This document shows, piece by piece, positions 6,966 to 37,236 of a DNA stretch of 64,000 nucleotides. The notes beneath the pieces were generated by a model that saw nothing but the letters and a program-made list of their open reading frames with translations, ran no database searches and was not told where the DNA came from. The translations under genes and the position numbers were made by a program. Location: the NCBI GenBank assembly GCA_947494565.1, contig CANLVG010000004.1, positions 186,001 through 250,000 on the forward strand. The letters run 5' to 3'. This stretch comes from an uncultured Flavobacteriaceae bacterium. Lineage in GTDB: Bacteria > Bacteroidota > Bacteroidia > Flavobacteriales > Flavobacteriaceae. How positions within the stretch are numbered: position 1 is the stretch's first letter; each line of letters starts with the position of its first letter.

Positions 6966-8354
6966 TTATTTGGTACGCGCTATGTGTTTTAATAGTCCAT
7001 CTAGTATTTCGTCATTTTCGTCAATAAGATGGTCTTGGATGTAGATATCGGGAATTACGCCTTCTGCCTTCTTACTTCCATTCACACGAACAATGTAGCC
7101 TTTGGCTATTTTTACGTTAATTCCGGTATGCGGTAGGTCATAATTATATTGACTGGCATATAAACTCGGGAAATCCCCAGTTTCTTCGCCCACAATGGTG
7201 GCAAATTCGAAATCCTGAATTTGTGCAGCGGTTACTGCCGATTGTGAGTGGGATTGCCGGTTTACCAAAACAAACGTTTTACCCGCATATCTTTTGGTCT
7301 TTGGTTGCGGTTCATAGGCGTCGAATTCGTAAGGATAAATGCTGCCGTCTTTATGAGTTAGCACACTCTGCCAAAAGGGGTTGCTTGTGTCATATTTTTC
7401 CCGTACATGGGTTTTTAGAATTGCGCTTGTTTTCAAGGTGAATTCTGAATTCCATTGAAAAGGTCGGTCGGCAATATAGGAAACCAAGTAATCGCTAAAG
7501 GAGTCGTCTCCCCCTAAATTGTTTCTCAAATCAATGATAAGATGCGGTAGCTTCGTGTCGTTGATTTGCACAAAAGCGGAATCTATAAAGCGCTTGTATT
7601 CTTGTTCGTCACCACCAAAATTTCCAGGTCTTAAATAGGCGGTTTGATGAAGAAACTGCAATTCCCTTTTGGCATACCAGAGTTCATTTCTTTTCATTTC
7701 ATAGTCTTGAATGAGGTCTATTGATTGAAGTTGATATTGCTGGTTTTTGTTCTCTTTTTTGACTTCAATTTCAAAGCTCTTCTGCTCCCCAAATGCCTGC
7801 CAATAGAGTCTAGGAAAGGAAAAAAGCTCGATTTTGGCCAATTTAAAATACCGTCTTTCGGCTGATATTAAGGGGTATATGCGCTCTAGCACCTCATTTA
7901 TAGTCAGACCGTTAATACAAATTAGTTCAGTGCCACTATTCAGCGCTGAATTGCCGGACCAGTTTTTTCGAACAAGAGCTTTTCCATTTTCAAATGCAAT
8001 TTCCAAAGGAAAAAGTGTCCCGCCCGAATGGGCATATTCACGATAAACAGCTCCAGGAAAATTGATTTCAGTGTGTCCATTATTAGCTTTCGAAATTACC
8101 GCTTGAAATAAAGAGGTCACTTCAAGCAGCGAGAGGCTATCTTTGGTCACCGATAATTTCAATTCTTCGAAATTTTCATTGAATGCGGTTTTGGTGGTAT
8201 AGGCGTAGAGATTATAATGGGCCTTATCTAAAGACTCGTGCAAAAAGTCTAAATCTTCTAGTACTTTCTGTTGCGAAAACTTATTTTGTCCTACAGCGTT
8301 ACAAGCACATAGGAAGATCAATATCATTAGAGGTACTGTCAAAAATGCTTTCAT
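6966..8354 (-). CDS. S41 family (C-terminal processing) peptidase, exported
   Basis: A 462-residue secreted protein; the signal peptide (LMILIFLCACNAVGQ) contains a possible lipobox. The C-terminal half has the S41 fold: HLIIDLRNNLGGDDSF, the strand TFVLVNRQSHSQSAVTAAQIQDF with the nucleophile region, and IVGEETGD. The N-terminal part is a long helical region typical of Bacteroidota S41 proteins of unknown substrate. The usual Ser in S-A-S-A/S-E is replaced by an SHSQSA context, as in several members of this subgroup, so activity is probable but not certain. It is convergent with the response regulator and not obviously part of an operon. Confidence 0.88.
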   Translation of the reverse strand: MKAFLTVPLMILIFLCACNAVGQNKFSQQKVLEDLDFLHESLDKAHYNLYAYTTKTAFNENFEELKLSVTKDSLSLLEVTSLFQAVISKANNGHTEINFPGAVYREYAHSGGTLFPLEIAFENGKALVRKNWSGNSALNSGTELICINGLTINEVLERIYPLISAERRYFKLAKIELFSFPRLYWQAFGEQKSFEIEVKKENKNQQYQLQSIDLIQDYEMKRNELWYAKRELQFLHQTAYLRPGNFGGDEQEYKRFIDSAFVQINDTKLPHLIIDLRNNLGGDDSFSDYLVSYIADRPFQWNSEFTLKTSAILKTHVREKYDTSNPFWQSVLTHKDGSIYPYEFDAYEPQPKTKRYAGKTFVLVNRQSHSQSAVTAAQIQDFEFATIVGEETGDFPSLYASQYNYDLPHTGINVKIAKGYIVRVNGSKKAEGVIPDIYIQDHLIDENDEILDGLLKHIARTK

Positions 8355-8595
8355 ATGACGAAGACGAACGACGGTTGATTTCGTTACTCAGGTGGCCTTA
8401 GAAATTAAAATTTTGGGTGGCTAAGCACTTTCGAAATGGATAGTACGGCAGCGAATGCCAGTTTGCTTTTCGCCATGAAAATAACAAAATCTTTGTGCAG
8501 AATGGCACTTTAAAAATCCGAAAACCCTCAACTCGGCCCTGGGCCTTTATCGCTTGGCTTATAGGCCGTTTTTGAGGCAGAATAAATTTATGCAA

Positions 8596-30653: not shown

Positions 30654-31697
30654 TTGACCTTTAAAAACCGAAGACGCCTAAGAGTTATCCGTACCTTTTG
30701 TATTGGATGGACCTTGTCGTTACTATTTTTGACAATTATCAGAGGTGTCGGGGCCACGGAAGATGGGGCAATAGATTTTGATATTTCAACCAGCTTTTTA
30801 TATGCACTTACCATAGGACCGCTTTTTGGCGGTATTTCCGGATATGCACAAATCGTAACCGATGAACGGTTTTATAAGCGTACATCGGCCCGAAAACTTT
30901 TGGCAATTCGCATTTCGATGTCGCTGGCGTTCTTAATTACATTGATACTGGTTTCGTATCTGATCGTGCCTCCGCTTTTGGATGTCGATATTAGTCTGAT
31001 GGACTTTGCTTCCGATAAAGGGAGTTCCGCAATTTACTTTTATATCTTGTCCACCGATATTTTTATGGCGGCCCTATGGCAGGTCAATTTGATGTTCGGC
31101 GAAAACAAGTTATGGAAAATACTCATGGGAGCGTTTTACGAACCTCATGAAGAAGATCGGATCTTTATGTTTCTTGACCTGAAAGATTCCACACAGCATG
31201 CCGAAAGATTGGGCCATATTAAATATAGCAGGCTTATTCAAGATTGTTTCAATGATCTAGGTGTCGTTATAGAAAACGAAGCGGAGATTTACCAATATGT
31301 GGGCGATGAGGCGGTCCTGACGTGGCGCTTGCAAGATGGACTTCGAAATCAAAACTGCATCAATGCCTTTTATACGTTCAAAAGTAAACTACTCAAAAAG
31401 CAGCCATACTATTCCAAGAAGTATGATTGTGTTCCCCATTTCAAGGCCGGTTTGAATGAGGGTGTTATTACCGCCACGGAAGTAGGGAAATACAAAAAGG
31501 AAATCGCCTATCACGGCGATACGATAAACACGGCAGCAAGAATTCAAAAGAAGTGCAATGAATTCAATCAGGAACTACTGATTTCCGAAAACCTGAAAAA
31601 TAAAATAACAGGTAGTACCCATGAGTTTATACCATTGGGTGATATACCCTTGAAAGGTAAAGCCCAAAAGGTGGCGATTTTTGCAATACAACGGTAA
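30654..31697 (+). CDS. Membrane class III adenylate/guanylate cyclase
   Basis: A 347-residue protein with four N-terminal membrane helices (about residues 12-30, 44-63, 82-104 and 123-145) followed by a class III nucleotidyl cyclase domain (about residues 165-345). Metal-binding residues are Asp175 (FLDLKDST) and Asp218 (YVGDEAVLTW); the transition-state segment is YHGDTINTAARIQKKC, with the Asn/Arg of the family. It starts at TTG (30654), preceded by AAAAGAGA; no ATG occurs in the N-terminal part that would retain the membrane region. It synthesises a cyclic nucleotide, probably cAMP, in response to an unknown signal. It stands alone. Confidence 0.9.
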   Translation: MTFKNRRRLRVIRTFCIGWTLSLLFLTIIRGVGATEDGAIDFDISTSFLYALTIGPLFGGISGYAQIVTDERFYKRTSARKLLAIRISMSLAFLITLILVSYLIVPPLLDVDISLMDFASDKGSSAIYFYILSTDIFMAALWQVNLMFGENKLWKILMGAFYEPHEEDRIFMFLDLKDSTQHAERLGHIKYSRLIQDCFNDLGVVIENEAEIYQYVGDEAVLTWRLQDGLRNQNCINAFYTFKSKLLKKQPYYSKKYDCVPHFKAGLNEGVITATEVGKYKKEIAYHGDTINTAARIQKKCNEFNQELLISENLKNKITGSTHEFIPLGDIPLKGKAQKVAIFAIQR

Positions 31698-31764
31698 TTG
31701 TGTTTTGCAAATTATTTTCGTTTTGTTTCCGACCGAAATCGTAAGGAAATGAAATACCCAAACG

Positions 31765-31803
31765 AACAAAGGGGATACATTGATGAAGTGTATCCCCTTT
31801 GTT
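31765..31803. terminator. Bidirectional stem-loop terminator
   Basis: AACAAAGGGGATACA (31765-31779) and TGTATCCCCTTTGTT (31789-31803) form a perfect 15-bp stem with a 9-nt loop. It lies between the convergent cyclase gene (plus) and the small-peptide genes (minus), in the position of a shared terminator. No long T-run follows on either strand. Confidence 0.7.
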
Positions 31804-31824
31804 GGTGTGTTTTGGCAGAATTGA

Positions 31825-31935
31825 TTAGAGACTGCACTTGGGTTGTGACCAGCGGATCCGTATGCGGTCTTCCCGATTGAAAGGAAGGGCAAACTTTCGC
31901 GATTCCGTTGGATATTGATTGATGTGTGTGCTCAT
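31825..31935 (-). CDS. Small basic peptide (36 aa), third member of a tandem family
   Basis: An ATG at 31935 opens a 36-residue frame that ends at TAA, 22 bp before the stem-loop terminator. In ungapped alignment with the 37-residue twins upstream it shares Met1, Ile5, Thr10-Glu11-Ser12, Arg26, Trp29 and Gln31. Lys13/Arg13 and Ala30/Ser30 are conservative swaps. It is Arg-rich (RIRIRW near the C-terminus) and has one Cys near the end. The register-perfect match of TES and W-x-Q in such a short peptide supports homology. No function is known. It shares strand and probably transcript with the twins. Confidence 0.6.
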   Translation of the reverse strand: MSTHINQYPTESRKFALPFNREDRIRIRWSQPKCSL

Positions 31936-31966
31936 GACGTTGTTAGGGATTGATGTGTCGCCGTGA

Positions 31967-32080
31967 CTAACGATTAAAGTTTCTATACTGGGCCCACTGG
32001 GCTCTTTTGGTACCTCTAAAGGTTGAGAAGTACTGTCCTGTTTTTGATTCTGTTGCTGTTTTTGTGATTGATGCTTTCAT
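31967..32080 (-). CDS. Small basic peptide (37 aa), identical in sequence to the next copy
   Basis: ATG at 32080, TAG stop. The peptide begins MKASITKTATESKTGQYF, has STFRGTKRAQWAQY in the middle and ends RNFNR. It has eight Lys/Arg against one acidic residue and is rich in aromatic residues. The gene at 32216-32329 encodes exactly the same 37 residues, although seven codons differ in their third base and the stop codons differ. Such synonymous-only divergence indicates selection on the peptide. There is no signal peptide or membrane helix. The spacer to the next gene downstream is 31 bp. Function unknown; an RNA- or membrane-binding role would fit the composition. Confidence 0.82.
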   Translation of the reverse strand: MKASITKTATESKTGQYFSTFRGTKRAQWAQYRNFNR

Positions 32081-32215
32081 GATGTTTTATTTTTAATATT
32101 GTTTATTCGTTTATGATGGTACAAATATGCTTCAGTTAGTTTAGGAGCCGAAACTGTTGTTGCCGAATTGTCGTTTTATTGGTTTCAACTGTTCCTTTTC
32201 AGCTCCCAAGAAATC

Positions 32216-32329
32216 TTAACGATTAAAATTTCTGTACTGGGCCCATTGTGCTCTCTTGGTACCTCTAAAGGTTGAGAAGTACTGTCCTGTCTTTGATTCT
32301 GTAGCTGTTTTTGTGATTGATGCTTTCAT
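32216..32329 (-). CDS. Small basic peptide (37 aa), first copy of the tandem family
   Basis: ATG at 32329, TAA stop, encoding the same peptide as 31967-32080. All differences between the two coding sequences are silent (Ala9, Lys13, Lys25, Ala27, Gln28, Tyr32 and Asn34 codons), while the spacers upstream of the two genes show no obvious similarity. The leader is A-rich (AAAAACAACATATT) as in many Bacteroidota. No clear promoter of the TTG-N19-TAnnTTTG type was found upstream, so the start of the transcript is unknown. Confidence 0.82.
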   Translation of the reverse strand: MKASITKTATESKTGQYFSTFRGTKRAQWAQYRNFNR

Positions 32330-32582
32330 AATATGTTGTTTTTAGATGTTGTTATACGAGTTGTTTTTTAAACTTGCTTGCCGTTCTGCGGCTTGCAATA
32401 TGTCTAATAGACGACGCGGATTATATTTTGTTACAGTACTATGCATAAAAAGGTACTATATTATATAAAATTTAACATTTGTTAGGTTTCAAGAGAACTA
32501 CATGATTTATAAATAGCTAGTAATCAATAAGTTGTGATGAAGTCGAATTTTTGGTGATTTTACATTAAAGACTCCGCTTATC
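32330..32582. other. Intergenic, AT-rich, no gene seen
   Basis: About 250 bp between the first small-peptide gene (minus) and the promoter region of the DUF6797-like gene (plus). I see no open frame of note, no tRNA and no clear repeat. It must hold the promoter of the peptide genes. Confidence 0.6.
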
Positions 32583-32612
32583 TTAAAGCGTTACAGGTGC
32601 GGGCTACTTTTG
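32583..32612 (+). promoter_or_regulatory. Putative promoter of the 32721 gene
   Basis: TACTTTTG (32605-32612) matches TAnnTTTG, with TTA 19 nt upstream at 32583-32585. The start codon follows 108 nt further on, so a long leader is implied. Confidence 0.5.
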
Positions 32613-32720
32613 TAGGTATTTGGGATCCGAATAGTGGAAAGACCGACCCGGTTCATTGCTCGTTAGGTTTCGTCATCAGGTATTCGTTCGGGGACATTTA
32701 TTCCTTACATTTATAAGACT

Positions 32721-35700
32721 ATGCTACGCTCGAGATACCAACAGTACTTTAGACAGATGTTTCTGAGACTCCTTTGTCTTCGGAAAATACGCACCAAAGT
32801 GGTATCAAGTGGTCTCTTCTTGATACTCATTTTCGTGTGGGGTTGCCAACAAAGTACGCCTGAAGGTTCTTGGGACTATCAAATTGATTTTGGAGACTGG
32901 CAGTCTCAGGGAACGATGAAGCTCCAGAACGGCAATGATGGGGCGACCCTTGTTTTGGTGTCTTTAGAGGATGGAACGTTCAATTTCGAAAACCTGAAGG
33001 TCACCCGTACGAATTTATCGGGCGAGGCGGTTATGTTCGGAAATGAAGCGGTTTTGGAGGGTGTTTTTGACCAAGAAACTTTTGTGGGTACCCTCCGTAC
33101 TGAAGACGAACAATTTCCTTTTACGGCCAAGAGACAATCGGAGGAGTTGGTTAGCATTGACCGCTCCAATATTGCCTATGTTCTTTCCGTAGAAGATTTA
33201 GGCGAATTGGAACGGGATATTGACCATGCCGGAATCATCGCAACTATGGATCGCGAGGGGTACAAGCGTGGTGAACGTATTTATAGTTCCAATTGCATCA
33301 ATTGCCATGGCAATGAGGAAGTAGAAGGCTCCATTCCCCTTTCGACCAAGTTCTGGAACCAGGAATTGAAATCAGGTAGCGATGCCTATTCCATGTACCA
33401 GACCATAAGCCGAGGCTATGGTACCATGCCCCCGCAGCCCGTCTTGACGCCACAAGAAAAGTACGATGTCATTGGGTATATCCGTCAAAAATATATCAAG
33501 CCAAGGGAAGGGGAGGCTTTCATAGCCAATACTCGGGGCTATCTTTCCGGTTTGCCCAAGGGAACTTCCCAAGGTCCTGCGGCAAAGCCCTACCAGCCTT
33601 GGGCCGATATGGACTACGGCAACTTTTTCATTAATACCTATGAACTCGTCGACGAAGAGACCGGCATTGAGCGTTATCATTCCCCCCGCCCAGTACCTTA
33701 TCCTGATGAGGATTACCGCAAAAATAACTTTGCATATAAAGGCATTGCTATCCGTTTGGATAAAGGCGAAGGCGGAGTTTCGAAGGGAAAAGCATGGATG
33801 ATCTTTGATCACGACCTGATGCGGGTCGCCGGTGGGTGGACAGGTCAAGGTTTTATCGATTGGAACGGGATTCTGTTAAACGACCAGCATGAAACCTATC
33901 CACGGACTATAGGGAAGCTTCATTTTGAAACTCCCGTCGGCCCCGGATGGGCCAATCCTAAAACAGGCTCTTTTGAAGACCCACGATTCAGGGCCAGAGA
34001 TGGGCGTGCCTTTGGTCCCTTACCGAAGTCTTGGGCAAATTATAAAGGACTATACCATCACAATGACGAAATCGTGATTTCCTATTCCGTAGGAACCGCC
34101 GATATCTTGGAGAAATTCGGGATGGAAGGCCATGGGAACGACACGATATTTACCAGAACACTCAATATTTCTCCCTCGACTTCTTTATTGAAAATGCGGG
34201 TGGCTCCCGAGAATATTGGGGTTGTAATGGTGGGTGAAGGTGCGAGTTTGTCCAGAGAAGAAGGGTATACGATATTGAATGTAAAAGGTGTCAAGGGAGC
34301 GAAGATCAAATTGTTTATAGCCGATACAGATCGACAAGACTTTGCGAACCTTTCAACAAGTAAGATCGCACCTCAAGATTTACGCGAATATACCTTAGGT
34401 AAGAGTGAACCACACTATCCCGAAATTCTGAAAAGCACGATCACAAAAGGTTCGGATGACGGTTCTTTTGCCGTTGATCAACTGACACCGCCATTTGATA
34501 ACCCCTGGGCTTCTAGAATGAAGTTGAGTGGTATTGATTTCCTGAAAGACGCCAACCAAGCAGTAGTATGCACAACGGACGGTGACATTTGGCATATCAA
34601 AGGTCTCACGGACGATACGGGCGAATTGAGTTGGCAACGCATTGGTTCGGGACTTTTTCAGCCTCTGGGGATCAAAGTTTTGAACGATAATATCTATGTC
34701 ATCTGTCGAGATCAGTTGGTGTTATTGCGCGATTTGAACGGCGATATGGAAACCGATTTTTATGAGAGTTTTAACCATGACCACCAAGTGACCGATCACT
34801 TTCACGAGTTTGCCATGGGGCTGCAGGCCGATAAAGAGGGCAATCTGTTTTACGCCAAAAGTGGTCGCCATGCCCGTGAAGCCCTAGTACCCCAACACGG
34901 CACCTTGCTCAAAGTGAGCAAAGATGGGGCCAAGACAGAAATCATCGCGAAAGGGTTCAGGGCCGCTAACGGTGTTTGTATCAATCCCGATGGAAGTTTT
35001 TTGGTCACCGACCAACAGGGGTTTTGGAACCCGATGAATCGAATCAATTGGGTTGATGGTAAGGGGAAGTTTTATGGCAATATGTGGGGATATGATCCGC
35101 CTAAAGACAGCACTCGGATCGCTATGGAGCAGCCTATGGTCTGGTTGGATATGGAGTTCGACCGATCTCCTTCAGAGTTGTTGTGGGTAGCTAGCGAACA
35201 GTGGGGGCCCTTAAATGGTAGCTTATTGAGTTTTTCCTATGGTTTCGGAAAAATACAGCTGGTTCTGAATGAGCAAGTAAATGGGCAGATGCAAGGCGGG
35301 GTTGTCGACCTGCCCGGAATCAAGTTCTTGACCGGGGTCATGCGCGGAAGATTTAATCCGGTTGATGGACAGTTGTACGCTTGCGGTATGTCGGCCTGGG
35401 GAACAAATCAAATGTTACGTGGTGGCGGACTTTACCGCATTCGGTATACGGGAAAACCAATAACAACTCCCATCGCCCTAAAAACGACAACCTCCGGAAT
35501 CATTTTGGAATTTGATGCTCCGCTGGACCTGAAAACGGCAACGGACACGGATAACTATGTAATCCAAACTTGGAATTTAAAGCGAAGCAGCAAGTATGGT
35601 TCCGATCGTTATGATCGACTGACACTGCCAGTTGCTCAAGCGGTCGTTCAACCGGATGGAAAATCGATTCAGCTGTTCCTAAAGGATATAAAACCCGTAG

Positions 35701-35909: not shown

Positions 35910-36440
35910 ATGCAATTAGAGGCTTTAGTAGAACGCTTTCGTCAGAAGGACGTCTCGGCATTCGAGAAGTTGTATGATATGTATGCGGTGAATATCAGCG
36001 GTGCAATCAACACCATAGTGCGAGATGAAGACCTGGCTCAAGAGATCTGTCAAGATGTTTTTTTGAAGGTTTGGAACAAAGCAGAGCACTATAATAGTTC
36101 AAAGGGGCGGTTTTTTACCTGGGTATTGAACATTGCCCGTAATGCGGCCATCGATAAAGTGCGCTCTAAATCCCATAAAAACTCAAAAAAGAACCTTTCC
36201 GCGGATTACTTCGTAGGTATTTTAGCCTATGAGGAATCATCGGAGGGGACAATCGATACGGACCGTCTGAAGCGTCTGGTTAAAGGACTAAAGGCCAAGT
36301 GCATTGAAATTATCGAAATGCTTTATTTTAGGGGATACACCCAAAAAGAGGCCGCAGAGGAACTCGAAATCCCCGTGGGTACGGTAAAGACACGAAATAG
36401 AAGTTGTATTTCGCAATTGCGGGAAAACCTGAACTTATAA
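35910..36440 (+). CDS. ECF RNA polymerase sigma factor
   Basis: A 176-residue sigma factor with region 2 FEKLYDMYAVNISGAINTIVRDEDLAQEICQDVFLKVWNKA and region 4 KCIEIIEMLYFRGYTQKEAAEELEIPVGTVKTRNRSCISQLRENL. It ends 1 nt before the next gene, its membrane anti-sigma. It is a different subgroup from the one at 23174: the partner here is of RskA type. Confidence 0.95.
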   Translation: MQLEALVERFRQKDVSAFEKLYDMYAVNISGAINTIVRDEDLAQEICQDVFLKVWNKAEHYNSSKGRFFTWVLNIARNAAIDKVRSKSHKNSKKNLSADYFVGILAYEESSEGTIDTDRLKRLVKGLKAKCIEIIEMLYFRGYTQKEAAEELEIPVGTVKTRNRSCISQLRENLNL

Positions 36441-36441
36441 T

Positions 36442-37236
36442 ATGGATGTAAACGAGTACATAGCATCGGGTATTCTGGAACTATATGTTGCAGGACAGCT
36501 CTCCGAAAAAGAAAATTCGGAAGTGTACACGCTTGCTATGGAACATCCGGAAATCGCCGCAGAAATTGAATCCATCGAAGCGGCTGTGCTGGACCTGGCC
36601 AGAACTGCGGCTCCTTCCCAAAAACCTGAATTCGAGTCGCTTAAAAATCGCTTGCCACTGCAGGAGGACACCAAGGTGGTCACCATAGCTAAAAAGGACA
36701 CCAATTGGACAGCTTATTTGGGTTGGGCAGCTTCACTTCTATTGGCCCTTGGATTGTTTTGGGTTTACAATCAGAATAGTGAACTGAAGTCGCGAATTGA
36801 AGTTGCCAATCAAGAAAATAGGAAATTGGAACAGCAAATCGCCGAGTCGGATACTTCATTGGAAAAATCACGGACCCTGTTACAGACCATCCGGGATAAA
36901 GACATCACCGTCGTTCCTTTGGGCGGGCAGAAGGTATCCCCAGAATCCTATGCCAAGGCCTACTGGAACAAAAAAGAACAAAAGGTGTTTATTGATGCAC
37001 AGGGCCTACCCGACCCCCCCGATGGTATGGTCTATCAAGTGTGGTCTTTAAAAGTGGATCCGTTGACCCCTACGAGCATGGGAATTTTAGAGGATTTTGT
37101 CTCGGATGATAACAAGGTATTCGCACTGGCCAACCCAAATGATTCAGAGGCATTTGGCATCACCTTGGAGCCCGCGGGCGGTAGTGTGTCCCCTAATCTA
37201 GAGCAGTTGTATGCCTTGGGCGCTGTTTCTTCTTAA
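36442..37236 (+). CDS. RskA-type membrane anti-sigma factor
   Basis: A 264-residue protein with a cytoplasmic N-terminal domain (IASGILELYVAGQLSEKENSEVYTLAMEHPEIAAEIESIE). One membrane helix (about residues 93-111, YLGWAASLLLALGLFWVY) is followed by a coiled coil (residues about 112-155) and a C-terminal anti-sigma-K domain (KAYWNKKEQKVFIDAQGLPDPPDGMVYQVWSL, FGITLEPAGGS). It is paired with the ECF gene and should release it after periplasmic stress proteolysis. Its targets may include the neighbouring DUF4331 or cytochrome genes, but nothing in the sequence proves this. Confidence 0.93.
   Translation: MDVNEYIASGILELYVAGQLSEKENSEVYTLAMEHPEIAAEIESIEAAVLDLARTAAPSQKPEFESLKNRLPLQEDTKVVTIAKKDTNWTAYLGWAASLLLALGLFWVYNQNSELKSRIEVANQENRKLEQQIAESDTSLEKSRTLLQTIRDKDITVVPLGGQKVSPESYAKAYWNKKEQKVFIDAQGLPDPPDGMVYQVWSLKVDPLTPTSMGILEDFVSDDNKVFALANPNDSEAFGITLEPAGGSVSPNLEQLYALGAVSS

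Follow-up and report, generated by a model that had tools for sequence, protein, structure and literature searches.

Tandem genes for very small basic proteins behind an ECF-sigma-type promoter in Flavobacteriaceae

Introduction

CcaF1 of Rhodobacter (71 aa) is a small RNA-binding protein of the DUF1127 type, and its operon carries an RpoHI/RpoHII promoter and, at the 3' end, a terminator (PMC10253847). In Agrobacterium, small DUF1127 proteins (SDPs) bind the sensor kinase PhoR (PMC12501420). As far as they are described in such reports, DUF1127 proteins (CcaF1, YjiS and the Agrobacterium SDPs) are often shorter than 50 aa, basic, and often present as several paralogues. The peptides described here are like them in these respects. 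They are encoded in a 64,000-nucleotide stretch of the genome of an uncultured Flavobacteriaceae bacterium (the window), and, like CcaF1, they are small and basic (net charge +7) and lie behind what reads as an alternative-sigma promoter. Judged from sequence, this likeness is not one of kinship, and the arrays would be a further case of small, basic proteins encoded downstream of an alternative-sigma promoter, analogous to DUF1127 and CcaF1 without detectable relatedness. Unlike DUF1127 proteins, the window peptides gave no match to Pfam DUF1127 at E values up to 10, nor did the 44 rows of our family profile A2 at E up to 1, and they are set apart by tandem identical copies, an ECF-type rather than RpoH promoter, and another core motif.

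Within the Bacteroidota, the SM6 promoter class of F. psychrophilum has been ascribed to ECF sigma factors from mapped start sites, and which of seven ECF sigmas reads it was left open (PMC9723704). SM6 resembles the array promoter in having a CGT box in its -10 region. The selection of SM6 genes shown in that report includes an ECF/anti-sigma pair, the putative regulatory RNA Rfp11, and T9SS, Band-7, ABC-transporter and other genes, with no peptide array among them (PMC9723704). SigP of P. gingivalis is also a Bacteroidota ECF sigma, of the T9SS, and the motif suggested for it, C(T)AAA(G/C/T)A(T)A(C)T(A/G)A, is unlike the array sequence TGTAAC-N16-CGTC (PMC4800418). In Porphyromonas, PG_0214-0216 and PG_0985-0987 are annotated in the order sigma, hypothetical protein, DUF4252 (PMC10101095), as is the sigma locus described below (sigma, a 139-145 aa protein and a DUF4252 protein); this likeness is one of annotation order alone.

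Results

Peptide genes of the window

Three peptide genes are located in tandem on the minus strand of the window. Gene 1 (32216-32329) and gene 2 (31967-32080) both translate to MKASITKTATESKTGQYFSTFRGTKRAQWAQYRNFNR, a 37-aa peptide that we designated class 1. The two genes differ at 7 positions, each the third of its codon, and none of the 7 changes alters a residue; the chance of seven silent changes out of seven was about 2.4e-5, given 21.9% silent sites and random changes. Their stop codons are also unlike, TAA and TAG. The third gene (31825-31935) encodes a divergent, 36-aa class 2 peptide. Translation and codon comparison confirmed what the initial annotation had reported for the three frames, namely an identical 37-residue product from two of them despite seven silent differences and differing stops, and M1, I5, T10-E11-S12, R26, W29 and Q31 shared by the third. 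Profile A2 matched the terminal gene at E 2.3e-14, the sequence itself being 1 of the 44 rows of that profile. A divergent terminal peptide followed the class 1 copies in 45 of 58 arrays, as scored with a loose pattern. Because of this recurrence in other arrays and the A2 match, the terminal gene is very probably a true relative of the 37-aa peptides.

The 135-bp spacer between genes 1 and 2 (32081-32215, minus strand) is kept between genomes and follows a copy in six other arrays; in the spacer alignment, 7 of the 10 rows represent this spacer, and the rows from L120, L138 and L142 represent another spacer and were not counted. A CATATTTGTACC box inside the spacer (32118-32130) may be an internal sigmaA promoter. 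The array does not start at 32329, as its promoter lies at 32408-32477. An ORF at 32342-32446 was considered as a leader peptide and rejected; with an ATG that precedes the ECF boxes, it would be off the ECF transcript. A search of 31600-32800 against Rfam returned only matches far below the gathering scores.

Distribution of the family and selection on its members

Class 1 is represented by five full copies in the same genome: besides the pair in the window, two lie at the end of contig C6 and one at the start of contig C17. The C17 start (L054 1-125) and the C6 end (L055 10676-10980) share 27 bases inside a copy, and the second array was therefore probably split by the assembly. In a search for relatives, 9 of 59 genomes matched, the source genome included, and 0 of 23 genomes from other families of the order did so. 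Among 397 genomes of the same family, at least 67 matched the class 1 profile A1 (E 0.01) and at least 60 matched the broader profile A2 (E 0.001), these counts being lower bounds, with part of the candidates scored per genome. A draw of 296 genomes from the phylum gave 3 matches, all in Flavobacteriaceae, the share of the draw outside that family not being visible. A scan of named genomes yielded 62 loci in Maribacter, Ulvibacterium, Arenibacter, Croceitalea, Pricia, Saonia, Allomuricauda and other Flavobacteriaceae. Carriers include Maribacter vaceletii DSM 25230 (L102, with its operator at L276 as judged from coordinates) and Maribacter algarum RZ26 (L117). The window peptide had no tblastn match at E 0.01 in phage and plasmid collections.

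Pfam contained 0 families matching the four window ORFs at E up to 10, and no NCBIfam family matched the window peptides. Across the 44 A2 rows (E up to 1), Pfam gave only weak matches to DUF3528 (0.029) and DUF6968 (0.096), one each. Among the open-licence papers searched, none was found by title or opening of the abstract to treat these peptides or such arrays. The family appears to be undescribed in the libraries searched.

To describe the arrays, 73 loci were reduced to 62 distinct arrays in 60 loci, 8 loci being duplicates. The named loci L102, L111, L133, L137 and L148 missed the class 1 pattern and are outside the array counts. Class 1 copies numbered one in 14 arrays, two in 26, three in 15 and four in 7, and these are lower bounds that miss copies with other starts (as in L126, L134 and L139). 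Within arrays, pS was 0.323 and pN 0.042, a pN/pS of 0.13 (112 pairs, uncorrected); between the first copies of 61 arrays, pS was 0.588 and pN 0.119, a pN/pS of 0.20 (uncorrected). The net charge of class 1 peptides ranged from +5 to +8, and their N-terminal half was also conserved. In marine flavobacteria, there appear to be tandem genes for tiny basic proteins that evolution has kept nearly unchanged.

These values bear on what the initial annotation had inferred. Its proposal of selection on short peptides rich in Lys/Arg and aromatic residues was supported by the pN/pS within arrays, and its statement that they match no known family agreed with the Pfam and NCBIfam searches. The comparison of homologues and dN/dS that it had suggested yielded many tandem homologues with pN/pS well below 1. 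Stop-bearing copies, which it had counted against its reading, were seen among the matches listed in G381 and in one weak 41% match, both of which read through a stop, and in none of the rest. The interpretation as a whole was supported in part, as to selection and the absence of a known family, and the promoter, the ECF sigma and the wider superfamily lay beyond its scope.

The short size and tandem layout would also be seen if the frames were chance ORFs in a non-coding repeat. Against this, 137 of 139 class 1 copies were 37 aa long, though the pattern allowed 30-42, the copies kept start and stop at a pN/pS of 0.13, and the spacers diverged; we give chance ORFs practically no credence. Cationic, short peptides in tandem copies with small variations could likewise be secreted as antimicrobial or signalling peptides, or be precursors of modified peptides. 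Reading of the sequences, however, revealed neither a signal sequence nor a double-Gly leader, no recurrent modification, export or biosynthetic gene was noticed among the nearest ORFs of the 62 arrays (clustered by BLAST), and conservation extends to the N-terminal half of class 1; we regard secretion or modification as very improbable. The short hydrophobic membrane peptide of type I toxin-antitoxin systems was not found either, the window peptide having a charge of +7 and no hydrophobic run on reading.

Part of the arrays also hold a peptide of a further class, designated GFGW, of the type M-x-T-L-x-x-H...RPKIYFRIGFGWNTDR; one GFGW peptide matched DUF4421 at E 0.038, below the cut-off of that family. 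Single-copy relatives of the MKAKMSKAPTEVRKNSFFSNFKGSKRVLWTAYRNHR type were observed in L042 (2288-2398, minus strand) and L043 (4919-5029, plus strand). Both lie directly upstream of a gene for a secreted-looking protein and are without the array leader. The downstream protein in L043 matches DUF3244/Por_Secre_tail, and L043 retains only a GTACTGTAA-like stretch.

The array promoter and its operator

Upstream of gene 1 on the minus strand, the sequence TGTAAC-N16-CGTCTA (32408-32435) is fused to a direct repeat, ATAGTAC-N10-ATAGTAC (32436-32459), and the whole reads as an ECF-sigma promoter with an array-specific operator. TGTAAC-N16-CGTCT[AT] was present in 53 of the 62 arrays, with exactly 16 bp between the boxes. 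These 53 promoters were chosen for alignment solely by that pattern, and the block upstream of it is thus unselected. Directly upstream of the ECF boxes, the unselected block ATAGTACCTTTTTATRCATAGTAC was near invariant, and AGTAC occupied both repeat places in 52 of the 53 promoters. When the repeat and the -35 box were searched together, with up to 3 mismatches, 3 sites were found in the source genome, each before short-peptide ORFs.

TGTTAAA lies further up from ATAGTACCTTTTTATRCATAGTAC, and conservation fades beyond it. Both TGTTAAA and TAGTACCTTTT were conserved across the 53 array promoters. A sigmaA-type consensus, TAnnTTTG, has been described (PMC9723704), and TGTTAAA ... TACCTTTT (32448-32477, minus strand) would be, tentatively, a possible upstream promoter of this type.

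Nine of the 62 arrays lacked the ECF motif by the pattern used. Two of these, L055 and L140, begin near a contig end, and the other 7 do not. Five arrays without the motif (L108, L109, L112, L113 and L134) share a regulator-like upstream neighbour of 683-685 aa, and four of the five also share a downstream neighbour. These five are probably under other control. In the window, a second GTAAC-N16-CGTC match was observed on the minus strand (8363-8387), just upstream of an ORF at 6966-8354; with 0.26 matches expected in the window, it could be another target or a chance occurrence.

The operator leads to a wider set of short peptides

The operator was used alone, with up to two mismatches, to search the 397 genomes of the family. 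There were 57 sites in 45 genomes and 0 for the reversed pattern, and 30 of the sites were fetched. All 30 were followed by short ORFs, one of them cut by a contig end, and 26 had the ECF boxes at 16 bp. The core S/T-x4-W-x3-R-x-Y/F/H/L was encoded at 27 of the 30 sites, in 48 of 84 ORFs, compared with 0 of 130 control ORFs and 0.3% after shuffling. Of the three exceptions, L253 has Cys in place of Ser, L268 has Gln in place of Arg, and L274 is cut. We define the superfamily here by this core together with the operator-ECF promoter, and 27 of the 30 operator sites belong to it by that definition.

Thirteen of the 45 operator genomes had no A2 match, and all 9 sites fetched from these led to core-bearing ORFs, mostly 28-aa peptides such as MRTLNSNQITERINTSKAYVWNNKRRYR. 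Profile comparison linked the 28-aa class to the GFGW class (E 4.8e-6, probability 86%) and, only weakly, to A2 (E 0.011, probability 3.9%). The 28-aa arrays L251, L259, L263, L264 and L278 close with a 44-aa ORF of another type, and for the 44-aa ORF of L259 a Pfam scan at E 1 gave no match.

The -35 and -10 boxes of the arrays also precede an ECF sigma gene

TGTAACA-N15-CGTCTW was searched in 12 hand-picked genomes, most or all of them known peptide carriers, and gave 56 sites versus 2 for the reversed pattern. Among 30 fetched sites, 12 preceded peptide arrays, 4 an ECF sigma gene, 2 genes for DUF4870-like proteins and 12 other genes, several of which encode membrane or outer-membrane proteins by reading. 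One of the two DUF4870-like proteins was tested, and the other names of regulon and neighbour genes were mostly assigned by reading. Four further sites lie, by their coordinates, 50-51 bases upstream of the same sigma gene, which was preceded by the same -35 and -10 boxes in 8 of the 12 genomes. Three of the 12 (G061, G148 and G403) had no exact site at the sigma gene, and G007 lay outside this comparison.

The copy of this gene in the source genome (G000:C3:352997-353503) lies outside the window on a different contig, and its product contains Sigma70 r2 and r4 (Pfam). The gene is followed by one for a protein of 139-145 aa with one hydrophobic segment by reading, and then by one for a DUF4252 protein (Pfam, on L192). 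Its own promoter lacks the ATAGTAC repeat. At least 305 of the 397 same-family genomes carry the sigma (E 1e-60), and all 60 A2-positive genomes are among these 305 by comparison by eye (hypergeometric 2.9e-8, a value inflated by kinship). Because the same -35 and -10 boxes precede the arrays and one conserved ECF sigma gene, they point to that sigma as the likely controller of the arrays.

A different ECF sigma gene, with an RskA-type anti-sigma, is located in the window itself (35910-37236), about 3.5 kb from the array promoter. This nearby sigma (35910-36440) was considered as the controller and rejected, the promoter-sharing sigma gene being on another contig.

A hairpin at the end of class 1 arrays

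The window array ends, as the initial annotation had noted, at a 15-bp stem-loop (31765-31803, minus strand); its stem is perfect, and its loop, CTTCATCAA, has 9 nt. The hairpin is probably a terminator. A simple terminator scan scored it as terminator-like on the plus strand only, that of a convergent cyclase gene; on the minus strand, where the stem lacks a following T run, it was not so scored. Among the 58 class 1 arrays with enough sequence, 35 had a stem of at least 9 bp downstream and the other 23 had none of this length. TCATCA was in the loop of 24 of the 35 long hairpins and in 0 of 52 control hairpins. It was also missing from the hairpins found at class 2 loci (12 hairpins, 20 loci) and at other operator loci (10 hairpins, 14 loci), and the TCATCA loop is therefore a feature of class 1 arrays.

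In an alignment of the window with 28 further rows (A7), stems covary around the loop CTTCATCAA. For 22 of these rows, 9 of 13 pairs covaried and 34 cells were changed on both sides, versus 8.3 in shuffles, the rows having been selected by their loop and 7 of the 29, in another register, left out. A covariance model of the hairpin had matches in 38 of 39 genomes (E 0.1), and it therefore picks up generic terminators; its 5 matches above 50 bits were all at class 1 arrays. Many starts of terminal ORFs contain the same letters as the loop, TTCATCAA.

The transcript might have a dual function, encoding peptides and also giving rise to a small 3' RNA at the terminal hairpin, in which the UUCAUCA loop would serve as the seed; this would account for the loop enrichment and the covarying stem. 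The 23 class 1 arrays without a long hairpin, and the lack of the loop at class 2 and other operator loci, argue against it, as does the choice of the covariation rows by loop, and an RNA role for the transcript body is at odds with the high synonymous divergence of its coding parts (pS 0.59). We consider such a small RNA improbable.

Predicted structure and proposed function

An AlphaFold2 model of low confidence (pLDDT 63) placed a helix at residues 25-35 and left the N-terminal half without structure. Such a helix could bring K25, W29 and R33 to one side, with S/T24 as its cap. A profile search of the PDB with A2 gave only non-significant matches. The first of these was to eL24 (E 0.32, over 19 positions), in which A2 aligned the SLF..+KNPRRIAWT part; this likeness is a lead at most and was given no weight.

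The charge, the lack of a signal sequence on reading, the several copies and the stress-type promoter suggest that the peptide is abundant and cytoplasmic and would act by binding. The initial annotation had listed RNA-binding, regulatory and antimicrobial roles, and among these the apparent sigma control favours an intracellular stress or regulatory role. By analogy with CcaF1, RNA or the ribosome would be the first choice of target. Our preferred reading, held with somewhat less than even confidence, is that an ECF sigma governs a regulon whose output is many doses of small basic peptides, probably helical, with RNA or the ribosome as their target. When active, the sigma (G000:C3:352997-353503) would drive its own gene together with at least one unlinked array. 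The ATAGTAC repeat, which the sigma gene lacks, would bind an extra regulator or belong to an overlapping promoter, and so provide a second control. Each array, once expressed, would give several small cytoplasmic peptides of 28-44 aa, most of them basic; their shared C-terminal part, S/T-x4-W-x3-R-x-Y/F, would probably form a short helix. This part would most likely bind RNA or the ribosome, the peptides adjusting translation or RNA turnover under stress, probably of the envelope, and the tandem copies would supply dose. Sequence supports the regulatory part of this reading well, and it shows the genes, the selection on them, the superfamily core, the promoter and the boxes that the arrays have in common with the sigma gene. 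The molecular target is what we infer, as are expression, direct control by that sigma, the helix and the nature of the stress; one point against the reading is that binding to RNA or the ribosome is argued from charge, size and analogy.

The peptides of the same ECF regulon may instead bind a protein, such as RNA polymerase, the sigma, its membrane partner or a sensor kinase, and act as modulators of feedback or output. This alternative is serious because small basic DUF1127 proteins of Agrobacterium bind PhoR (PMC12501420). The fixed C-terminal Trp/Arg motif suits a protein interface as well as RNA, and the sigma gene bears the same promoter boxes. However, the arrays have no regular neighbour that could encode a partner, the largest cluster of nearest neighbours having 10 members for 62 arrays. 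The sigma, moreover, is far commoner than the peptides (305 versus 60 of 397 genomes) and therefore does not need them. On balance, we regard protein binding as rather unlikely, though well worth weighing.

Discussion

Judged from sequence, the arrays form a genuine and conserved system of small proteins, with a promoter that is well defined and a sigma that is likely; action on RNA or the ribosome is our proposal for it. In a bolder form, which we hold to be possible though doubtful, they would constitute an undescribed stress-output module of Flavobacteriaceae, in which an ECF sigma and the operator fire tandem operons of mini-proteins that modulate the ribosome or RNA by dose. That module would take in the 37-aa, 28-aa, GFGW and terminal types, most with the W-x3-R-x-Y/F helix, and perhaps an RNA from the 3' hairpin.

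Few parts of bacterial genomes are annotated as poorly as small proteins, and little is known about how Flavobacteriaceae control stress responses. The promoter signature finds such genes without relying on peptide similarity and points to a sigma. Should RNA or the ribosome prove to be their target, the peptides would add a layer of post-transcriptional control that is driven by a sigma and was built without DUF1127, independently of it.
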